This document shows, piece after piece, positions 14,743 through 35,998 of a stretch of DNA of 37,190 nucleotides. Origin of the DNA: Gallionellaceae bacterium. Its GTDB lineage: Bacteria > Pseudomonadota > Gammaproteobacteria > Burkholderiales > Gallionellaceae. Below the pieces are notes generated by a model. The model had not been told where the DNA came from. It worked only from the letters and a program-made list of their open reading frames with translations, and did not search any database. The stretch lies in NCBI GenBank assembly GCA_008080515.1, contig VIKH01000009.1:1-37190 (forward strand). Reading direction: 5' to 3'. How positions within the stretch are numbered: position 1 is the first letter of the stretch; each line of letters begins with the position of its first letter. Made by a program: the position numbers and the translations under genes.

Positions 14743-16032
14743 CTAAAAATTCAGCGCCGGTTCCCCGCCCTTGGGAAACAGCACCCACATCCGGCCCTGC
14801 TGCTTCATCCTGCCCGCCAGCGCGGCAGCGCGCTCGCCAAAACCCCAGAAGAAATCCGCGCGCACCGCGCCCTTGATGGCGCCGCCGGTATCTTGCGCCA
14901 GCATCAGGCGGTTGAGCGGGGCGCTGTCGTTCGGGTAGGTGGTGGCAAGAAACACCGGCAACCCCAGCGGAATGGTGCGCGGATCCACCGCCAAACTATA
15001 TTCGCCGGTAAGCGGCACGCCCAGCGCCCCCAGCGGTGCCGAAAGTCCGTTCGGTAGCTCGCGGAAAAAAACGTAGCTGGGGTTCTGCGCCAGCAGCGCG
15101 CCCAGCTTGTCCGGGTGCTGCTCGGCCCACGCCTTGATGCCCTGCATGGAAGCTTCTTCGAGCTTGAGCTCGCCGGCCTCGACCAGTTTCTTGCCGATGG
15201 AAATATACGGGTGCCCGTTCTGGTCGGCATAGCCGATTTTTATCAGGCTCCCATCCGGCAGCTCGATGCGCCCCGAACCTTGGATTTGCAGGAAGAATAA
15301 TTCGACCGCGTTCTCCACCCAGAACAACTCGCGGCCCGCGAACGGGCCGCTCCCCGCATCAATTTCGGCGCGGCTGTAATAGGGTACCACGCGCTTGCCA
15401 TGCAGCCGTCCGCGCAGGCGCGAATCCTTGAGCTGCGGGTAGGCATCGCCCAGATCTATTTGCAGCAGATCGTCCGGTGCGGCATACACGGGGTAGCGGA
15501 AGCGCGGGGTCCGGGTGCGGTTGCCGTAAAGCTTGGGCTCGTAATAGCCGGTGATCGTACCCTGATCGCTGCCGTCGGCATTGAATATCTGATAGGGGAC
15601 AAACCACTCTTCGTAAAACGCGCGCAGCGCGGTGCTGCCATCTGCCCCCGATGGTTCGACGCCCAATTTCTCGGCTTGGGCGCAGGCCGCCTGCAGGCGC
15701 GGCTTGGCCTTTGCCGCCCGGCAGCTGTGCTGGAATGCCGCCCAGGACGGGGCGAGATCGAGCGATTGCCACTCCGGCAACATTTCCCACTTGCTCACCG
15801 CAAACAAAGGGGTGGGCGGCAAGACAGCCGGTGGCTGCGCCACAGGCGGCACTGCGGGCGGCTTGGGGGGCGCGACGCAAGCGGCCAGCACTGCGCACAA
15901 CCCCCAGGCCAACCATTTGCCGATTTTCTCTATTGGTTCGGCGCGAATAGAGTAGCAATTCCGTTCGGCCTGAGCTTGTCGAAGGCCCTGAATCCGCTCA
16001 TGTTTCGACAAGCTCAACACGAACGGATTCAT
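14743..16032 (-). CDS. mltA: Membrane-bound lytic murein transglycosylase A, repeat-derived N-terminus
   Basis: A 429-residue protein from the ATG at 16032. The catalytic part is intact: the MltA domain (about residues 100-320) and the 3D domain with the active-site aspartate in LMLAQDTGGAIKG, then RADFFWGFG. It cleaves peptidoglycan glycan strands at the outer membrane. The lipobox (AVLAAC, Cys52) sits unusually far from the start because residues 2-25 (FVLSLSKHERIQGLRQAQAE region) are a translated palindromic repeat. The start at 16032 has AGGAAA close by; another ATG at 16062 overlaps the stop of the methyltransferase gene (TAATG) and is in frame, adding 10 residues. The original start was probably near the repeat. 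It is last in the apaG, methyltransferase, mltA operon. Confidence 0.85.
   Translation of the reverse strand: MNPFVLSLSKHERIQGLRQAQAERNCYSIRAEPIEKIGKWLAWGLCAVLAACVAPPKPPAVPPVAQPPAVLPPTPLFAVSKWEMLPEWQSLDLAPSWAAFQHSCRAAKAKPRLQAACAQAEKLGVEPSGADGSTALRAFYEEWFVPYQIFNADGSDQGTITGYYEPKLYGNRTRTPRFRYPVYAAPDDLLQIDLGDAYPQLKDSRLRGRLHGKRVVPYYSRAEIDAGSGPFAGRELFWVENAVELFFLQIQGSGRIELPDGSLIKIGYADQNGHPYISIGKKLVEAGELKLEEASMQGIKAWAEQHPDKLGALLAQNPSYVFFRELPNGLSAPLGALGVPLTGEYSLAVDPRTIPLGLPVFLATTYPNDSAPLNRLMLAQDTGGAIKGAVRADFFWGFGERAAALAGRMKQQGRMWVLFPKGGEPALNF
15960..16030 (-). repeat. Palindromic repeat (family A) in mltA 5' end
   Basis: Two inverted TGAGCTTGTCGAA-type units: CCGTTCGGCCTGAGCTTGTC starting at 15961, and its inverted partner TTTCGACAAGCTCA with CGAACGGATTC to 16030. 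The same family occurs inside the ABC ATPase gene (23369-23450, 24529-24669), metH (28189-28300) and after dacB (about 35904-35975). Here it is read through in frame as the first residues of MltA. Confidence 0.85.
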
Positions 16033-16061
16033 ACTTTTCCTGTGCCGGAGGAGTAGCGTCA

Positions 16062-16667
16062 TTACGTTTTTTCCTTTTGCAATTCGATCAGGCGGAACCA
16101 GCCGCGCGCCAGCGCGGGTTGGTCCGACAATACGCGCAGTTCCGGCACGGCGTCCAACACATCCTCGAACACCACGTCCAGGCGGGTAGCCAGCCGCCCG
16201 GCCAGCGGGCTCAAGCTGCGCCGCAACCAGGCACGTTGCCCGCGCCGCAAAAATTTGTCGAACAGCAAAATGCGGCCACCCGGTTTGAGCACCCGCATCG
16301 CCTCGGCCAGGCATTTCTGCGGCTGCGGCACCACCGCGAGAATCAGGTGCAGCACCACATAATCGAAACTATGCGCGGCAAATGGCAGAACCATGCTGTC
16401 GCCCCGCACCCACCGCATTTGCAGCCCGCGCATTCTGGGCTTTGATCGCGCCAGCATCGCGGCGGTCAGATCGAGCGCGGTGTACTCGTGGCAGGGCGGC
16501 AAAAAGGGAAAATCCAAGCCGGTTCCGGCCCCGCCGATCAGCACCTGCGCCGCGTCCTGTTGCGGCAGCTTCGCCAGGCTGCGCCGCCGGATGTCGGCCG
16601 CGATGCCGCTTTCGATGAACGCATCGTAGAACGGGGCGATGAAACGGTAGCTGGTTTTTAGCGGCAT
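16062..16667 (-). CDS. Class I SAM-dependent methyltransferase (UbiE-like)
   Basis: A 201-residue methyltransferase of the UbiE/phosphatidylethanolamine-methylase-like group. It has the SAM-binding glycine motif as LIGGAGTGLDFPFL (about 42-55), the acidic end of strand 2 (TALDLTAAML), and motifs SFDYVVLHLIL and VLKPGGRILLFD. No signal peptide. The ATG at 16667 follows GGAG at a good distance. It lies 23 bases after apaG and one base from overlapping a possible mltA start. The substrate is unknown; a lipid or quinone precursor is possible. Confidence 0.85.
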   Translation of the reverse strand: MPLKTSYRFIAPFYDAFIESGIAADIRRRSLAKLPQQDAAQVLIGGAGTGLDFPFLPPCHEYTALDLTAAMLARSKPRMRGLQMRWVRGDSMVLPFAAHSFDYVVLHLILAVVPQPQKCLAEAMRVLKPGGRILLFDKFLRRGQRAWLRRSLSPLAGRLATRLDVVFEDVLDAVPELRVLSDQPALARGWFRLIELQKEKT

Positions 16668-17246: not shown

Positions 17247-17897
17247 CTACGATCTGCTACGGCGTCGTGCCGCGAAGCCCATCAAGCCCAAACCAGCCAA
17301 CAGCATTGCGTAGCTTTCCGGCTCGGGTACGGGCGCCGGTACTGGAGCGGCATTAATGCTTATATCATCGATAAGGAATTCCGGCCTGTTGCCATTACCC
17401 TGCGCAGTGAAAGTTACCGAAGACAAGTTGGAAAAGGACGGCGATAGAGAATATTGAGCCCAAGCGTAGCTGGAACTGCTATCGAGAACTACCGAGGTTG
17501 AAACAGTTCCGCCGCCGACCAGGTTGCCCAGGATGTCAATACTTGTTGCAAGAGAGTAATACCCTTGCGGATTTCGCCCGCCCGCAAAAAATGAATTTAG
17601 CGAGAAAGCTGCTCCGCCAACTTGAGCCATGGTAACGACCGACCGGAGATTGGCGTTGATCAGCGCGGCGGTCGTGTTGCTCCCGATCACGCCAGCGTTG
17701 CAAACGAACAAGTTTGAATCAACAGGATTGCCGGTAAAGTTGAACCCCCCACTCTGAACGGCTCCACTATAATAAGAAGCGCAGTTCCCGCTTATTACGT
17801 CTTGAAAATCAACAATGGCTGCCTGTGAGGGCATCGCAAATACAGCAAGTGCAATACCGGCGGCGACAGGGCTTAATAAGGTAGTAATTTTTGACAA
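17247..17897 (-). CDS. PEP-CTERM sorting-domain protein
   Basis: A 216-residue protein starting with TTG at 17897, supported by AGGA 7 bases upstream and by the signal peptide that begins there (SKITTLLSPVAAGIALAVFA). The mature part is Ser/Asn/Gly-rich, beta-structured and lectin-like in pattern, ending in VPEPESYAMLLAGLGLMGFA followed by RRRSRS, the PEP-CTERM sorting signal. Its tail is almost identical to that of the protein at 3956-4786, so both would be handled by the same exosortase. It has two to three cysteines in the first half that may form a disulfide. The binding target is unknown. It is inserted between apaG and rpe, which are near neighbours in related genomes. Confidence 0.87.
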   Translation of the reverse strand: MSKITTLLSPVAAGIALAVFAMPSQAAIVDFQDVISGNCASYYSGAVQSGGFNFTGNPVDSNLFVCNAGVIGSNTTAALINANLRSVVTMAQVGGAAFSLNSFFAGGRNPQGYYSLATSIDILGNLVGGGTVSTSVVLDSSSSYAWAQYSLSPSFSNLSSVTFTAQGNGNRPEFLIDDISINAAPVPAPVPEPESYAMLLAGLGLMGFAARRRSRS

Positions 17898-18237: not shown

Positions 18238-18924
18238 ATGTACAAAATCGCTCCCAGCATCCTTTCCGCCAACTTTGCAAAACTGGGCGAGGAGGTTGAT
18301 AACGTGCTCGCCGCCGGTGCGGATATCGTGCACTTCGATGTGATGGACAACCATTACGTGCCCAACCTGACCATCGGCCCGCTGGTGTGTGAAGCCTTGC
18401 GCAAGCACGGCGTGACCGCGCCGATAGATGCGCACCTGATGGTCAAGCCGGTGGACCGCATCATCCCGGATTTCGCCAAGGCGGGCGCGACCTACATCAC
18501 CTTCCATCCGGAGGCCTCCGAGCACATAGACCGCACCATCGGCCTGATCCGCGAGAGCGGCTGCAAGCCCGGCCTGGTATTCAACCCGGCCACGCCGCTG
18601 GAGGTGCTGGAATACACCTTGCCCAAGCTGGACATGGTGCTGCTGATGTCGGTGAACCCCGGCTTCGGCGGGCAAAAATTCATTCCCTTCGTGCTGGACA
18701 AGGCGCGCAAGGTGCGCAAAATGATCGTTGCAGGCGGTTACAACTGCCGACTGGAAATTGACGGCGGTGTCGGCCCCGCCAACATCAAGGAGGTAGCGGA
18801 AGCCGGGGTGGATACGTTTGTCGCCGGCTCCGCCATTTTCAATGCGGGCAAGGGCGGCGATCCGCACCGCTACGATACGGTCATCGCCGCCCTGCGCGCG
18901 GAGCTGGCCAAGGTTGGCCGCTAA
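18238..18924 (+). CDS. rpe: Ribulose-phosphate 3-epimerase
   Basis: A 228-residue TIM-barrel enzyme that interconverts ribulose 5-phosphate and xylulose 5-phosphate in the pentose phosphate and Calvin cycles. Typical motifs are all present: [34 protein letters not shown] with the metal-binding His/Asp, [29 protein letters not shown], and LEIDGGVG followed by FVAGSAIF for phosphate binding. The ATG has GAGG 7 bases upstream. The stop TAA once overlapped the gph start; a MITE now separates them. Confidence 0.97.
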
Positions 18925-18925
18925 T

Positions 18926-19033
18926 GGGCACCTCTAAAATTCGGATTTCGTCATTCCGGCGAAGGCCGGAATCCAGTATTTCAATAGGCTGGACACCGGC
19001 TTTCGCCGGTGTGACGAATTTTTAGAGGCTCCC
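18926..19033. mobile_element. 108-bp MITE-like element in the rpe/gph junction
   Basis: The element begins GGGCACCTCTAAAATTCG and ends CGAATTTTTAGAGGCTCCC, which are imperfect inverted copies of each other. It is flanked by TAAT on both sides (18922-18925 and 19034-19037), a likely 4-bp target duplication. Inside are CGTCA/TGACG arms and two hairpins: ATTCCGGC-gaag-GCCGGAAT and CACCGGC-tttc-GCCGGTG. It encodes nothing. The left TAAT supplies the rpe stop, the right one the gph ATG, and AGAGG near the right end lies 7 bases before that ATG as a Shine-Dalgarno. Related sequence is at 27513-27770. Confidence 0.85.
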
Positions 19034-19035
19034 TA

Positions 19036-19728
19036 ATGCTGCAAGCGCGCTTTCCGATCGAAGTTTCGGCGATCCTTATTGACCTGGATGGCACCCTGCT
19101 GGATACGGCGGCGGAGCTGGCGGAAGCCGCCAACCGCATGTTGCGTGACATGGGCCGCCCCGCCGTATCGCAAGACCTGCTGATGAGCTACATCGGCAAC
19201 GGCATCGGCTGGCTGGTGAAGCGCGCGCTGACCGGTGACATGCACAAAGAACCGGATGCCGCGCTGTTCCAGAAAGCCTTGCCGGTTTTCGAGCGCCACT
19301 ATGCGGCCCTGCTGGTGTTGAGCAAGCCCTACGGTCGCGTGGTTGAGGGGCTGGAAGCCATGAAACAGGCGGGGTTCAGGCTGGGGTGCATCACCAACAA
19401 GGCGGCGCGCTTCACCGGCCCGCTGCTGTCCAGTTCAGGCTTGGCAAGCTATTTCGAGATCGTCATTTCCGGCGACAGCCTGCCGGAAAAAAAGCCGCAC
19501 CCGCTGCCGCTGCTGCACGCCGCCCGATTCTTCGGGGTGCCGCCGCAACAGGTGCTGATGATCGGCGATTCGCTCAACGATACGCTCGCGGCGCGCGCCG
19601 CCGGTTGCCCGGTGGTGTGTGTGCCTTACGGCTACAACCATGGAGAACCGGTGGACAAGCTGGATCTGGATGCGGTCATCCCCGATCTGCCGTCCGCGCT
19701 TGACTTGATAAAAAGAGCGCAAGCGTAG
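19036..19728 (+). CDS. gph: Phosphoglycolate phosphatase
   Basis: A 230-residue HAD-superfamily phosphatase that removes phosphate from 2-phosphoglycolate. Motif I is [11 protein letters not shown] with nucleophile Asp16 and Asp18, the cap domain follows, motif II/III are ITNK and KPHPLPLL, and motif IV is [16 protein letters not shown]. The pair rpe-gph-trpE is the common betaproteobacterial order. The start codon comes from the target-site duplication of the MITE just upstream, and its ribosome site is inside the MITE end. Two bases separate its stop from trpE. Confidence 0.95.
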
Positions 19729-27438: not shown

Positions 27439-27512
27439 GTTCCCGCGCCTTCACCCGTTTTGGTATCGGCTTAAATGCGCTCGGCCAAGTCTTTCTTTCT
27501 GGCTTGGTTTAA

Positions 27513-27770
27513 GGGCACCTCTAAATATTCGAGTTTCGTCATTCCGGCGAAGGCCGGAATCCAGTTTGCGTAGGGTGCAACAAGCCTGCCCTGAGCGTAG
27601 CCGAAGGGGGTAGCGCATTGCACCATTCATTTTAGGAGCATCCGGCGCAATGCCCGTTGGTTATTACGCCCTTGCTTCAAAAAATTCGAGTTTCGTCATT
27701 CCGGCGAAGGCCGGAATCCAGTATTTTCAATAAGCTGGACACCGGCTTTTGCCGATTATTAGAGTTGCCC
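27513..27770. mobile_element. Composite MITE-like element flanked by TTAA
   Basis: The left end (GGGCACCTCTAAATATTCGA) and first hairpin match the 108-bp element at 18926-19033. The right part (from about 27678) again has ATTCCGGCGAAGGCCGGAAT, CCAG...CTGG and a partial CACCGGC hairpin, ending TTATTAGAGTTGCCC. Outer ends are inverted copies and are flanked by TTAA (27509-27512 and 27771-27774). Between the two halves sit a family B repeat (27574-27622) and about 55 bases of other sequence. It looks like one copy interrupted by, or recombined with, another. No protein is encoded. The rest of the gap to metH (27775-27856) shows nothing. Confidence 0.7.
27574..27622. repeat. Short repeat (family B), second copy
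   Basis: GGTGCAACAAGCCTGCCCTG then AGCGTAGCCGAAGGGGG, ending in TTGCACC, which is the inverted copy of the first seven bases (GGTGCAA). It is similar to 17198-17236. It lies inside the composite MITE. Confidence 0.55.
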
Positions 27771-27856
27771 TTAAGTTTTCGACAACTGCTCGTAAACATG
27801 CTCAAAACTGAAACCACAAACACAGCAACTACAACCATAGCGCCCATGGTTTCTGG

Positions 27857-28294
27857 CTAATACCCCAACACCGGCGCCAGCCAGCGCTCCGTCTCTGCCA
27901 CACTCCAGCCCTTGCGGTTGGCGTAGTCTTCCACCTGATCCCGGTCTACCTTGCCGGTGGCAAAATACTGTGCTTGGGGGTGCGAAAAACAGAAACCGCT
28001 GACCGCTGCGGTGGGCAACATCGCGTAGCTCTCGGTGAGGGTGATGCCCGCGTTCTTCGGGGCTTGTAGCAGATCGAACAGGGGCGCTTTCTCGCTGTGC
28101 TCGGGGCAAGCGGGATAGCCTGGCGCGGGGCGGATTCCGCGGTACTGCTCGGCGATCAGTGCTTCAAAGTCTACGGGTATGGAGGATTCCGTTCGCATTG
28201 AGCTTGTCGAAATGTGAACGGATTTTCGTGCTTCGACATAACCAGCGACTTGCCCGCTTGCGGGCTTAGTCGAATGGCTAGTAGTTCCAAGCAC
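27857..28294 (-). pseudogene. metH: Detached C-terminal part of metH
   Basis: A 145-residue frame, possible GTG start at 28294, whose last 95 residues are the end of the MetH AdoMet-activation domain: [77 protein letters not shown]. The first 50 residues are translated repeat DNA. It is in a different frame from the main metH frame and overlaps its end by 17 bases. It carries the Arg-x-x-x-Gly-Tyr motif that binds AdoMet in E. coli MetH. It could be made as a separate polypeptide by stop-start reinitiation, but no ribosome site is evident, so it is more likely dead sequence. Confidence 0.8.
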
Positions 28295-35881: not shown

Positions 35882-35998
35882 TCCGGCACGGTTTGAACTT
35901 GATTGCCGTTCGTGCTGCCTGTCGAAGCACAAGAATCCGTTCACATTTCGACAGGCTCAATGCGAGCGGATTCTTGGATAATGCGTGCCGGATCAATA
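35876..35998. repeat. 15-bp inverted repeat enclosing a family A palindromic repeat
   Basis: TATTGATCCGGCACG (35876-35890) and CGTGCCGGATCAATA (35984-35998) are perfect inverted copies. Between them lies a family A repeat (GCCGTTCGTGCTGCCTGTCG... CATTTCGACAGGCTCAATGC, about 35904-35975). The whole can fold into a long cruciform or, as RNA, a stem that might end or protect the dacB transcript. No T-run follows. The dacB stop codon is part of the left arm. Confidence 0.8.

Follow-up and report, generated by a model that had tools for sequence, protein, structure and literature searches.

The putative rpe gene and the gph gene are adjacent on the forward strand of the window (the whole stretch of 37,190 nucleotides that was analysed), and 108 bp of imperfectly palindromic DNA separate the stop codon of the former from the start codon of the latter. 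This raises the questions of how this DNA came to lie exactly between the two codons, where it came from, and how gph is translated with the palindrome in front of it. The initial annotation described it as a MITE inserted into a TAATG overlap of the rpe stop and the gph start, where a 4-bp duplication would have rebuilt both codons and the right end of the element would supply the ribosome site of gph. The features are listed in Table 1.

Table 1. Features at the rpe/gph junction (positions in the window)
Feature	Position	Strand	Remarks
rpe (putative name)	18238..18924	+	ORF; homologues beside gph in 34 family genomes; stop TAA 18922-18924 kept
Left TAAT copy of the target duplication	18922..18925		contains the rpe stop TAA; empty site in G001
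108-bp IS5-type MITE, imperfect palindrome	18926..19033		
Left terminal inverted repeat GGGCACCTCTAAAATTC	18926..18942		inverted arms; ends as in IS5 element
Interior double hairpin	18947..19018		inverted arms; similar sequence without ends in relatives
Right terminal inverted repeat AATTTTTAGAGGCTCCC	19017..19033		inverted arms
AGAGG, candidate gph ribosome-binding site	19024..19028	+	7 bases before ATG; predicted pairing with left-repeat CCUCU
Right TAAT copy	19034..19037		final AT and G19038 form the gph ATG; empty sites in relatives
gph (HAD-family hydrolase)	19036..19728	+	ORF, start codon intact; Pfam HAD_2, E 2e-31

The outer arms (18926-18939 and 19020-19033) are 86% complementary and the inner arms (18947-18976 and 18989-19018) 83%; the inverted ends extend over ∼16 bp, and a run of T residues is found 3′ of the inner stem. 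The predicted RNA fold of the element has an energy of −64.9 kcal/mol, compared to −30.4 ± 3.5 kcal/mol for 200 shuffled sequences (z = −9.8), none of which folded as low. No ORF of at least 100 amino acids in the ORF list is confined to the 108 bp, and the Rfam scan of the element gave three matches, all below the gathering score. Being short and devoid of a transposase gene, with terminal inverted repeats, a target duplication, dispersed copies and an empty site in relatives, the element has the attributes of a MITE. TAAT is present on both sides of it. As the 4-bp duplication covers TAAT, rpe kept its TAA on the left and gph regained its ATG on the right, the insertion point being CTAATG within the TAATG overlap. 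Neither gene was lost, and the rebuilding of both codons proposed in the initial annotation agrees with what is present at the junction.

We examined the same junction in other genomes. In G001, which belongs to the same genus, the junction is without the element and reads GGCAAATAATGCTGC (longer read, GGCAAATAATGCTGCAAGCG), and in G002, also of this genus, it is TGATG. The empty TAATG overlap expected in close relatives thus exists. Searching with gph, we obtained matches, some of them to paralogues, in 60 of 61 genomes. Of the 36 other family genomes, 34 had a readable rpe/gph junction; in the remaining two, gph matched weakly (G006) or not at all (G034). The two genes overlap by one base in 18 of these 34, are separated by gaps of 0 and 10 in two, and have longer or unresolved spacing in 14. 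The ends of the element were observed at none of the 34 junctions; 33 were read by script and that of G023, which the script did not place, by eye. As the overlap is common in the relatives and the element is found in none of them, the overlap is likely to be ancestral, with the element a local acquisition. Other repeats are present within the rpe/gph junctions of G008 (L042) and G020 (L034), the G008 repeat having a CGTCATTCCAGCG..CGCTGGAATGACG hairpin that resembles the interior of our element. The gph match of G002 (L090) is in two pieces, possibly from an insertion within the gene.

Copies of the element are dispersed. With a 116-base query, the genome under study returned 61 matches at E ≤ 10, a count that includes reverse-strand self-matches; end motifs (two or fewer mismatches) numbered 81, compared to 5 for a reversed control. 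After deduplication, 127 short elements whose 4-bp duplications match exactly (96) or with a single mismatch were collected across the loci examined, 19 of them from this genome; loci L031-L060, L090-L101, L123-L152 and L293-L340 are not part of the set, nor are spans above 330 bp. Other copies thus have terminal repeats and 4-bp duplications, as the initial annotation had anticipated, and the interiors differ. In a rough motif sort of the 127, the interior is a double hairpin like that of the rpe/gph copy in 23, a TTCGACAAGCTCAGTGCGAACGG palindrome in 8, a GAAAAAATTTC-type palindrome in 47, mixed or of other named kinds in 5, and something else in 44. When the 122 elements without N were folded alone, 14.4 to 16 of the 16 end bases were paired on average, by class. 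In relatives, the listed matches also include interiors without ends, covering only about positions 26-99 of the query.

A second family element is present in the window at 27513-27770 (258 bp), flanked by TTAA duplications at 27509-27512 and 27771-27774; its interior is interrupted by other sequence, partly repeated. Elsewhere in the same genome, one family element (L102; G000:C21:6788-8255) has an IS110-family transposase gene, by Pfam, inside it, and another locus (L114; G000:C147:8290-10224) has a reverse-transcriptase ORF, group II intron-like by eye, between the two ends. Three copies of another dispersed palindromic repeat (TTCGACAAGCTCAA..GAACGG) are found in the window at 15958-16037, 28178-28238 and 35920-35980, the first within ORF 14743-16314; this repeat resembles the interior of some elements of the MITE family. 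The ORF at 17247-17897 (minus strand) ends in VPEPESYAMLLAGLGLMGFAARRR.., which resembles a PEP-CTERM sorting signal.

The family is also widespread. At least 117 stretches matched the exact 17-base end when named genomes were scanned, and among the matches listed, paired ends with an exact 4-bp duplication occur in records titled Nitrosomonas, Candidatus Nitrotoga, Gallionella, Fibrobacter, Phycisphaerae, Clostridiales and Rickettsiales; because these records are mostly metagenome bins, some of the organism labels may be wrong. Searches with the element gave one weak match only among plasmids and none among phages. Viral contigs contained 23 stretches with one end motif, of which only L287 forms a short element with paired ends, flanked by a near-duplication.

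Next, we searched for a parent of the element. A gammaproteobacterial bin contains a 1292-bp element (L268) with the same ends and a TTAA duplication. Its transposase gene is frameshifted; a 303-aa open piece taken from it matches the NCBIfam IS5 transposase model NF033581 (E 3e-70, 237 bits, cut-off 140) and also Pfam DUF772 and DDE_Tnp_1, and its match to IS1182 (E 6e-34) is far below the cut-off of that model. G051, of the same order, has ten listed IS5 transposase copies, most of them in two pieces read in different frames. Of these ten, five lie within 1335-bp elements, whose 16-bp ends, GGGCATCTCTAAAAAT, are a one-letter variant of the MITE ends and whose exact duplications are ATAA, TTAT, TTAT, TTTA and TGAT; a 141-bp short element with MITE ends (L318) is present in the same genome. 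One copy in G057 has related ends (GGGCACCTCG) and AGAT duplications. The MITE therefore shares its ends with IS5-family elements (L268 and five of the ten G051 copies) and its 4-bp duplication with the presumed parent. The script found no MITE ends around the IS5 matches of the family genomes G013, G024, G030 and G032.

The protein of L268 has matches at E ≤ 1e-15 in 6 of 61 genomes, and in none of the three formed by the genome under study and the two of its genus. PF01609 also gave no match in the former, whose assembly is ∼90% complete. A transposase able to move the MITE was thus not found in the same genome, which bears on its present mobility and not on its ancestry. As no such transposase was found in these genomes, the mover has to be deduced from other genomes, and the copies in this genome look orphaned. 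We propose that an IS5-type transposase, most likely one recognising the 16-bp ends GGGCRCYTCTAAAAAT, would have moved the non-autonomous element to the junction.

ISAzo13 was tried as a parent because an N-terminal fragment resembling an ISAzo13-type transposase adjoins a family element in G002 (L122; C71). Among 30 ISAzo13 loci (L123-L152), many of them partial, none has a pair of MITE ends, and where inverted ends were detected they differ from those of the MITE; ISAzo13 was rejected. At another locus (L159, 4419-5710), a 1292-bp element with similar ends and TTAA duplications was observed, in which the recognised ORF is an IS200-like Y1 transposase and not IS5. Insertion together with IS5 ancestry is in our judgement very probably the right explanation of the rpe/gph element, and the insertion, its site, the duplication and the ancestry are each well supported.

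The choice of site can partly be understood from the target preference of the family. From 79 elements with exact duplications (71 short and 8 IS-size, both strands counted), the pooled target is C-T-T-A-A-G (C 54%, T 73%, T 66%, A 66%, A 73%, G 54%). CTAATG fits this consensus at four of six positions and departs from it at two (A 23%, T 25%), and TAAT makes up 4 of the 79 duplications. This partial fit helps to explain why the stop/start overlap was hit.

We then asked how gph is started downstream of the element. The insertion has moved an AAGG near the 3′ end of rpe, once close to the gph start, to a distance of over 100 nt, and so gph most likely starts from the AGAGG of the element, 7 nt upstream, or by reinitiation. 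The position of AGAGG given in the initial annotation is correct, and a 7-base spacing is usual for ribosome sites. The proposal that the element now provides the start signal of gph is only partly supported. With the 16S tail, AGAGG is predicted to pair at a modest −5.8 kcal/mol, a value reached by 18% of 2000 random 17-nt windows, and the empty gph site of G001 already has a comparable signal (−4.5). The family end AGAGGTGCCC pairs at −9.5 kcal/mol (2% of 2000 random windows as good) and contains GAGGTG, six bases of the Shine-Dalgarno consensus. The AGAAG variant (−2.9) is a poor site, and it is the commoner form in this genome, where 30 of 39 exact end hits are of the CTTCT form, read outward as AGAAG. 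The initial annotation also has to be corrected in that AGAGG sits within the predicted outer stem, with a mean unpaired chance of 0.00 in the free mRNA, which means that it is predicted to be fully paired.

The modest pairing and the predicted burial of AGAGG suit a reading in which the insertion was neutral for the start signal, gph being reached by reinitiation across the folded hairpin or from a weak start, and AGAGG being incidental. Two further observations point the same way. GAGG is about equally well conserved at gene-facing ends (15 of 17) and far ends (14 of 17; all ends, 184 of 254), so that selection on GAGG at gene-facing ends gave no visible signal; and L063, with the same arrangement as gph, has AGAAG, a poor site (−2.1). 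Against this reading, the 7-base spacing is that usual for ribosome sites, and among the genes described below that begin two bases from an element, GAGG faces the gene in 10 of 10, compared to 8 of 10 at the far end and 184 of 254 over all ends, although the difference is small. We regard a neutral insertion as a real possibility, though one we would not bet on.

The element could also lower gph expression, by attenuating transcription or blocking translation, and persist since a lower level of gph is tolerated. The very stable predicted hairpin, the T-run after the inner stem and the AGAGG predicted to be hidden in free mRNA would all fit such a role, but a consensus terminator scan returned 0 sites, compared to 0.9 in shuffles, and similar elements precede open biosynthetic genes, even if openness is not the same as expression. 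We consider an effect of this kind unlikely.

A different use of the same fold can be modelled. The predicted fold leaves 1 nt between the rpe stop and the foot of the palindrome and 2 nt between the foot and the gph start, and would thereby hide AGAGG; a ribosome finishing rpe may melt the foot of the stem and expose AGAGG in part, keeping gph coupled to rpe through the hairpin. When a ribosome at the rpe stop was modelled as covering the mRNA to +9, +10, +11 and +12 to +14 (counted from the first base of the stop), the unpaired chance of AGAGG rose from 0.02 to 0.19, 0.42 and 0.49. The model is compatible with coupling through the hairpin, rather than a proof of it, and we hold such coupling to be conceivable but rather doubtful. 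The candidate ribosome-site role of the element at gph is plausible.

The arrangement seen at gph recurs at other genes. An ORF of at least 110 codons starts within 20 nt of an element end in 45 cases, of which 26 genes were kept by hand, partly through recognition of protein starts. Two dropped rows have ATG at +2 (L005, probably antisense; L224, start uncertain), two look real (L393, ATG at +10; L385, GTG at +15), and 15 others were judged spurious or of doubtful start. In 10 of the 26 kept genes, the ATG lies exactly at +2 from the element end, formed by the last AT of the duplication and a following G, with AGAGG 7 bases upstream. These ten are gph, ilvD, hisZ, argD, cheB and the genes for a D-Ala-D-Ala carboxypeptidase, a GspF-like protein, an AcrB-like transporter, a TPR protein and a lipoprotein-like ORF without family match; in four of them (ilvD, carboxypeptidase, GspF-like and AcrB-like) the duplications have one mismatch. 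The protein start coincides with position 1 of the family model for ilvD and hisZ and with position 3 for argD, and residue 2 of the AcrB-like protein falls on position 1; the starts of the others are not settled by family models. Among eight of the ten that were scored for 16S pairing, ilvD, hisZ, argD, carboxypeptidase and GspF-like reach −9.5 or better and AcrB-like −7.0, and cheB has the same −5.8 as gph.

A second insertion in a TAATG overlap was found in G001 (L063), in a gene pair that is not adjacent in the genome under study. The argD leader has been hit by the family in two genera at different positions (L355 in G001, L436 in G013); the G013 insertion is a different one, and the genome under study has no element there (L433). 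In G020, hisZ is also preceded by an element; the right flank is shared but the left flank differs, and the hisZ pair may be either one old insertion or two.

How much of the +2 spike comes from the landing rule was estimated from the target weights. These peak at +2 (3.99, compared to a mean of ∼1.3 over 0 to +20), giving an expected share of 14.5% of the starts within 20 nt, which is a rough value because the control consists of 356 longest-ORF gene starts, many of them homologues of gph, hisZ and argD, and other positions (+13 to +15) are also high. NNATG fits the target preference and tolerates a 4-bp duplication, which would explain why elements often lie directly before start codons. That the start-codon excess is target preference plus survival only, the insertion sparing the reading frame, is a reading which the peak at +2 favours and which we find rather probable. 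The observed count is somewhat high for it: 10 of 26 against ∼4 expected (P = 0.002), 8 of 24 without the TPR and lipoprotein genes (P = 0.016), 10 of 28 with L393 and L385 added (P = 0.004), 12 of 30 with L005 and L224 as well (P = 0.0006), and 8 of 26 in a further alternative (P = 0.027). All these P values, 0.0006 to 0.027 over the choices, are post hoc, because the pattern was noticed in the same data, and come from hand-kept rows. Much of the spike is accounted for by target preference, and the remaining excess is suggestive only. The rpe/gph case is one instance of an arrangement that recurs across genes and genomes, in good part due to the landing rule.

A bolder reading would make CCTCT-type ends a portable ribosome site. 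Targeting of NNAT|G would rebuild the start and install AGAGG at 7 bases, wherever the family is common, native start signals of several genes would have been replaced, and in stop/start overlaps the paired ends would act as a switch opened by the upstream ribosome. We put this forward as an improbable reading. If true, ribosome-site-like ends and a start-rebuilding landing rule would let mobile DNA rewire translation and operon coupling without gene damage. The wide spread of the family would permit a comparative test, and the two-state hairpin is directly testable.

Mobile elements supply promoters and terminators. In the literature covered, with subscription papers largely outside its scope, no account was found of a bacterial MITE that furnishes a ribosome site together with a restored start codon. 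The Correia elements and dRS3 repeats of Neisseria are likewise small and bounded by inverted repeats; their ends probably differ from those of the rpe/gph element, and the interior hairpin of the latter presumably resembles dRS3-like palindromes. With the IS5-family insertion sequences (NF033581 group) and IS-derived MITEs, the element has in common the 16-bp ends, the 4-bp duplication and a DDE transposase in the presumed parent. It differs from the IS5 family in having no transposase, none of that kind having been found in its genome, and the likeness is one of ends and duplications. In Amoebophilus asiaticus, IS elements are reported to lie too near downstream start codons for the usual upstream signals to fit between, and the accessible part of the report proposes promoters within the IS, not a repeat-borne ribosome site or a rebuilt ATG (PMC3196728). 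The pneumococcal BOX, RUP and SPRITE are short structured repeats in transcribed regions, and part of BOX can carry a start codon (PMC3049150, which also names Correia and NIME elements). As far as the available text of that paper goes, BOX-made ORFs are without good Shine-Dalgarno sequences (PMC3049150). The ends of these repeats differ from those of the rpe/gph element. MITEAba12 of Acinetobacter is a 113-bp bacterial MITE with AT-rich duplications, for which fusions of its ends to genes were considered (PMC6382973). The portion of that article available describes gene fusion and truncation and mentions neither a rebuilt start codon nor a ribosome site (PMC6382973).
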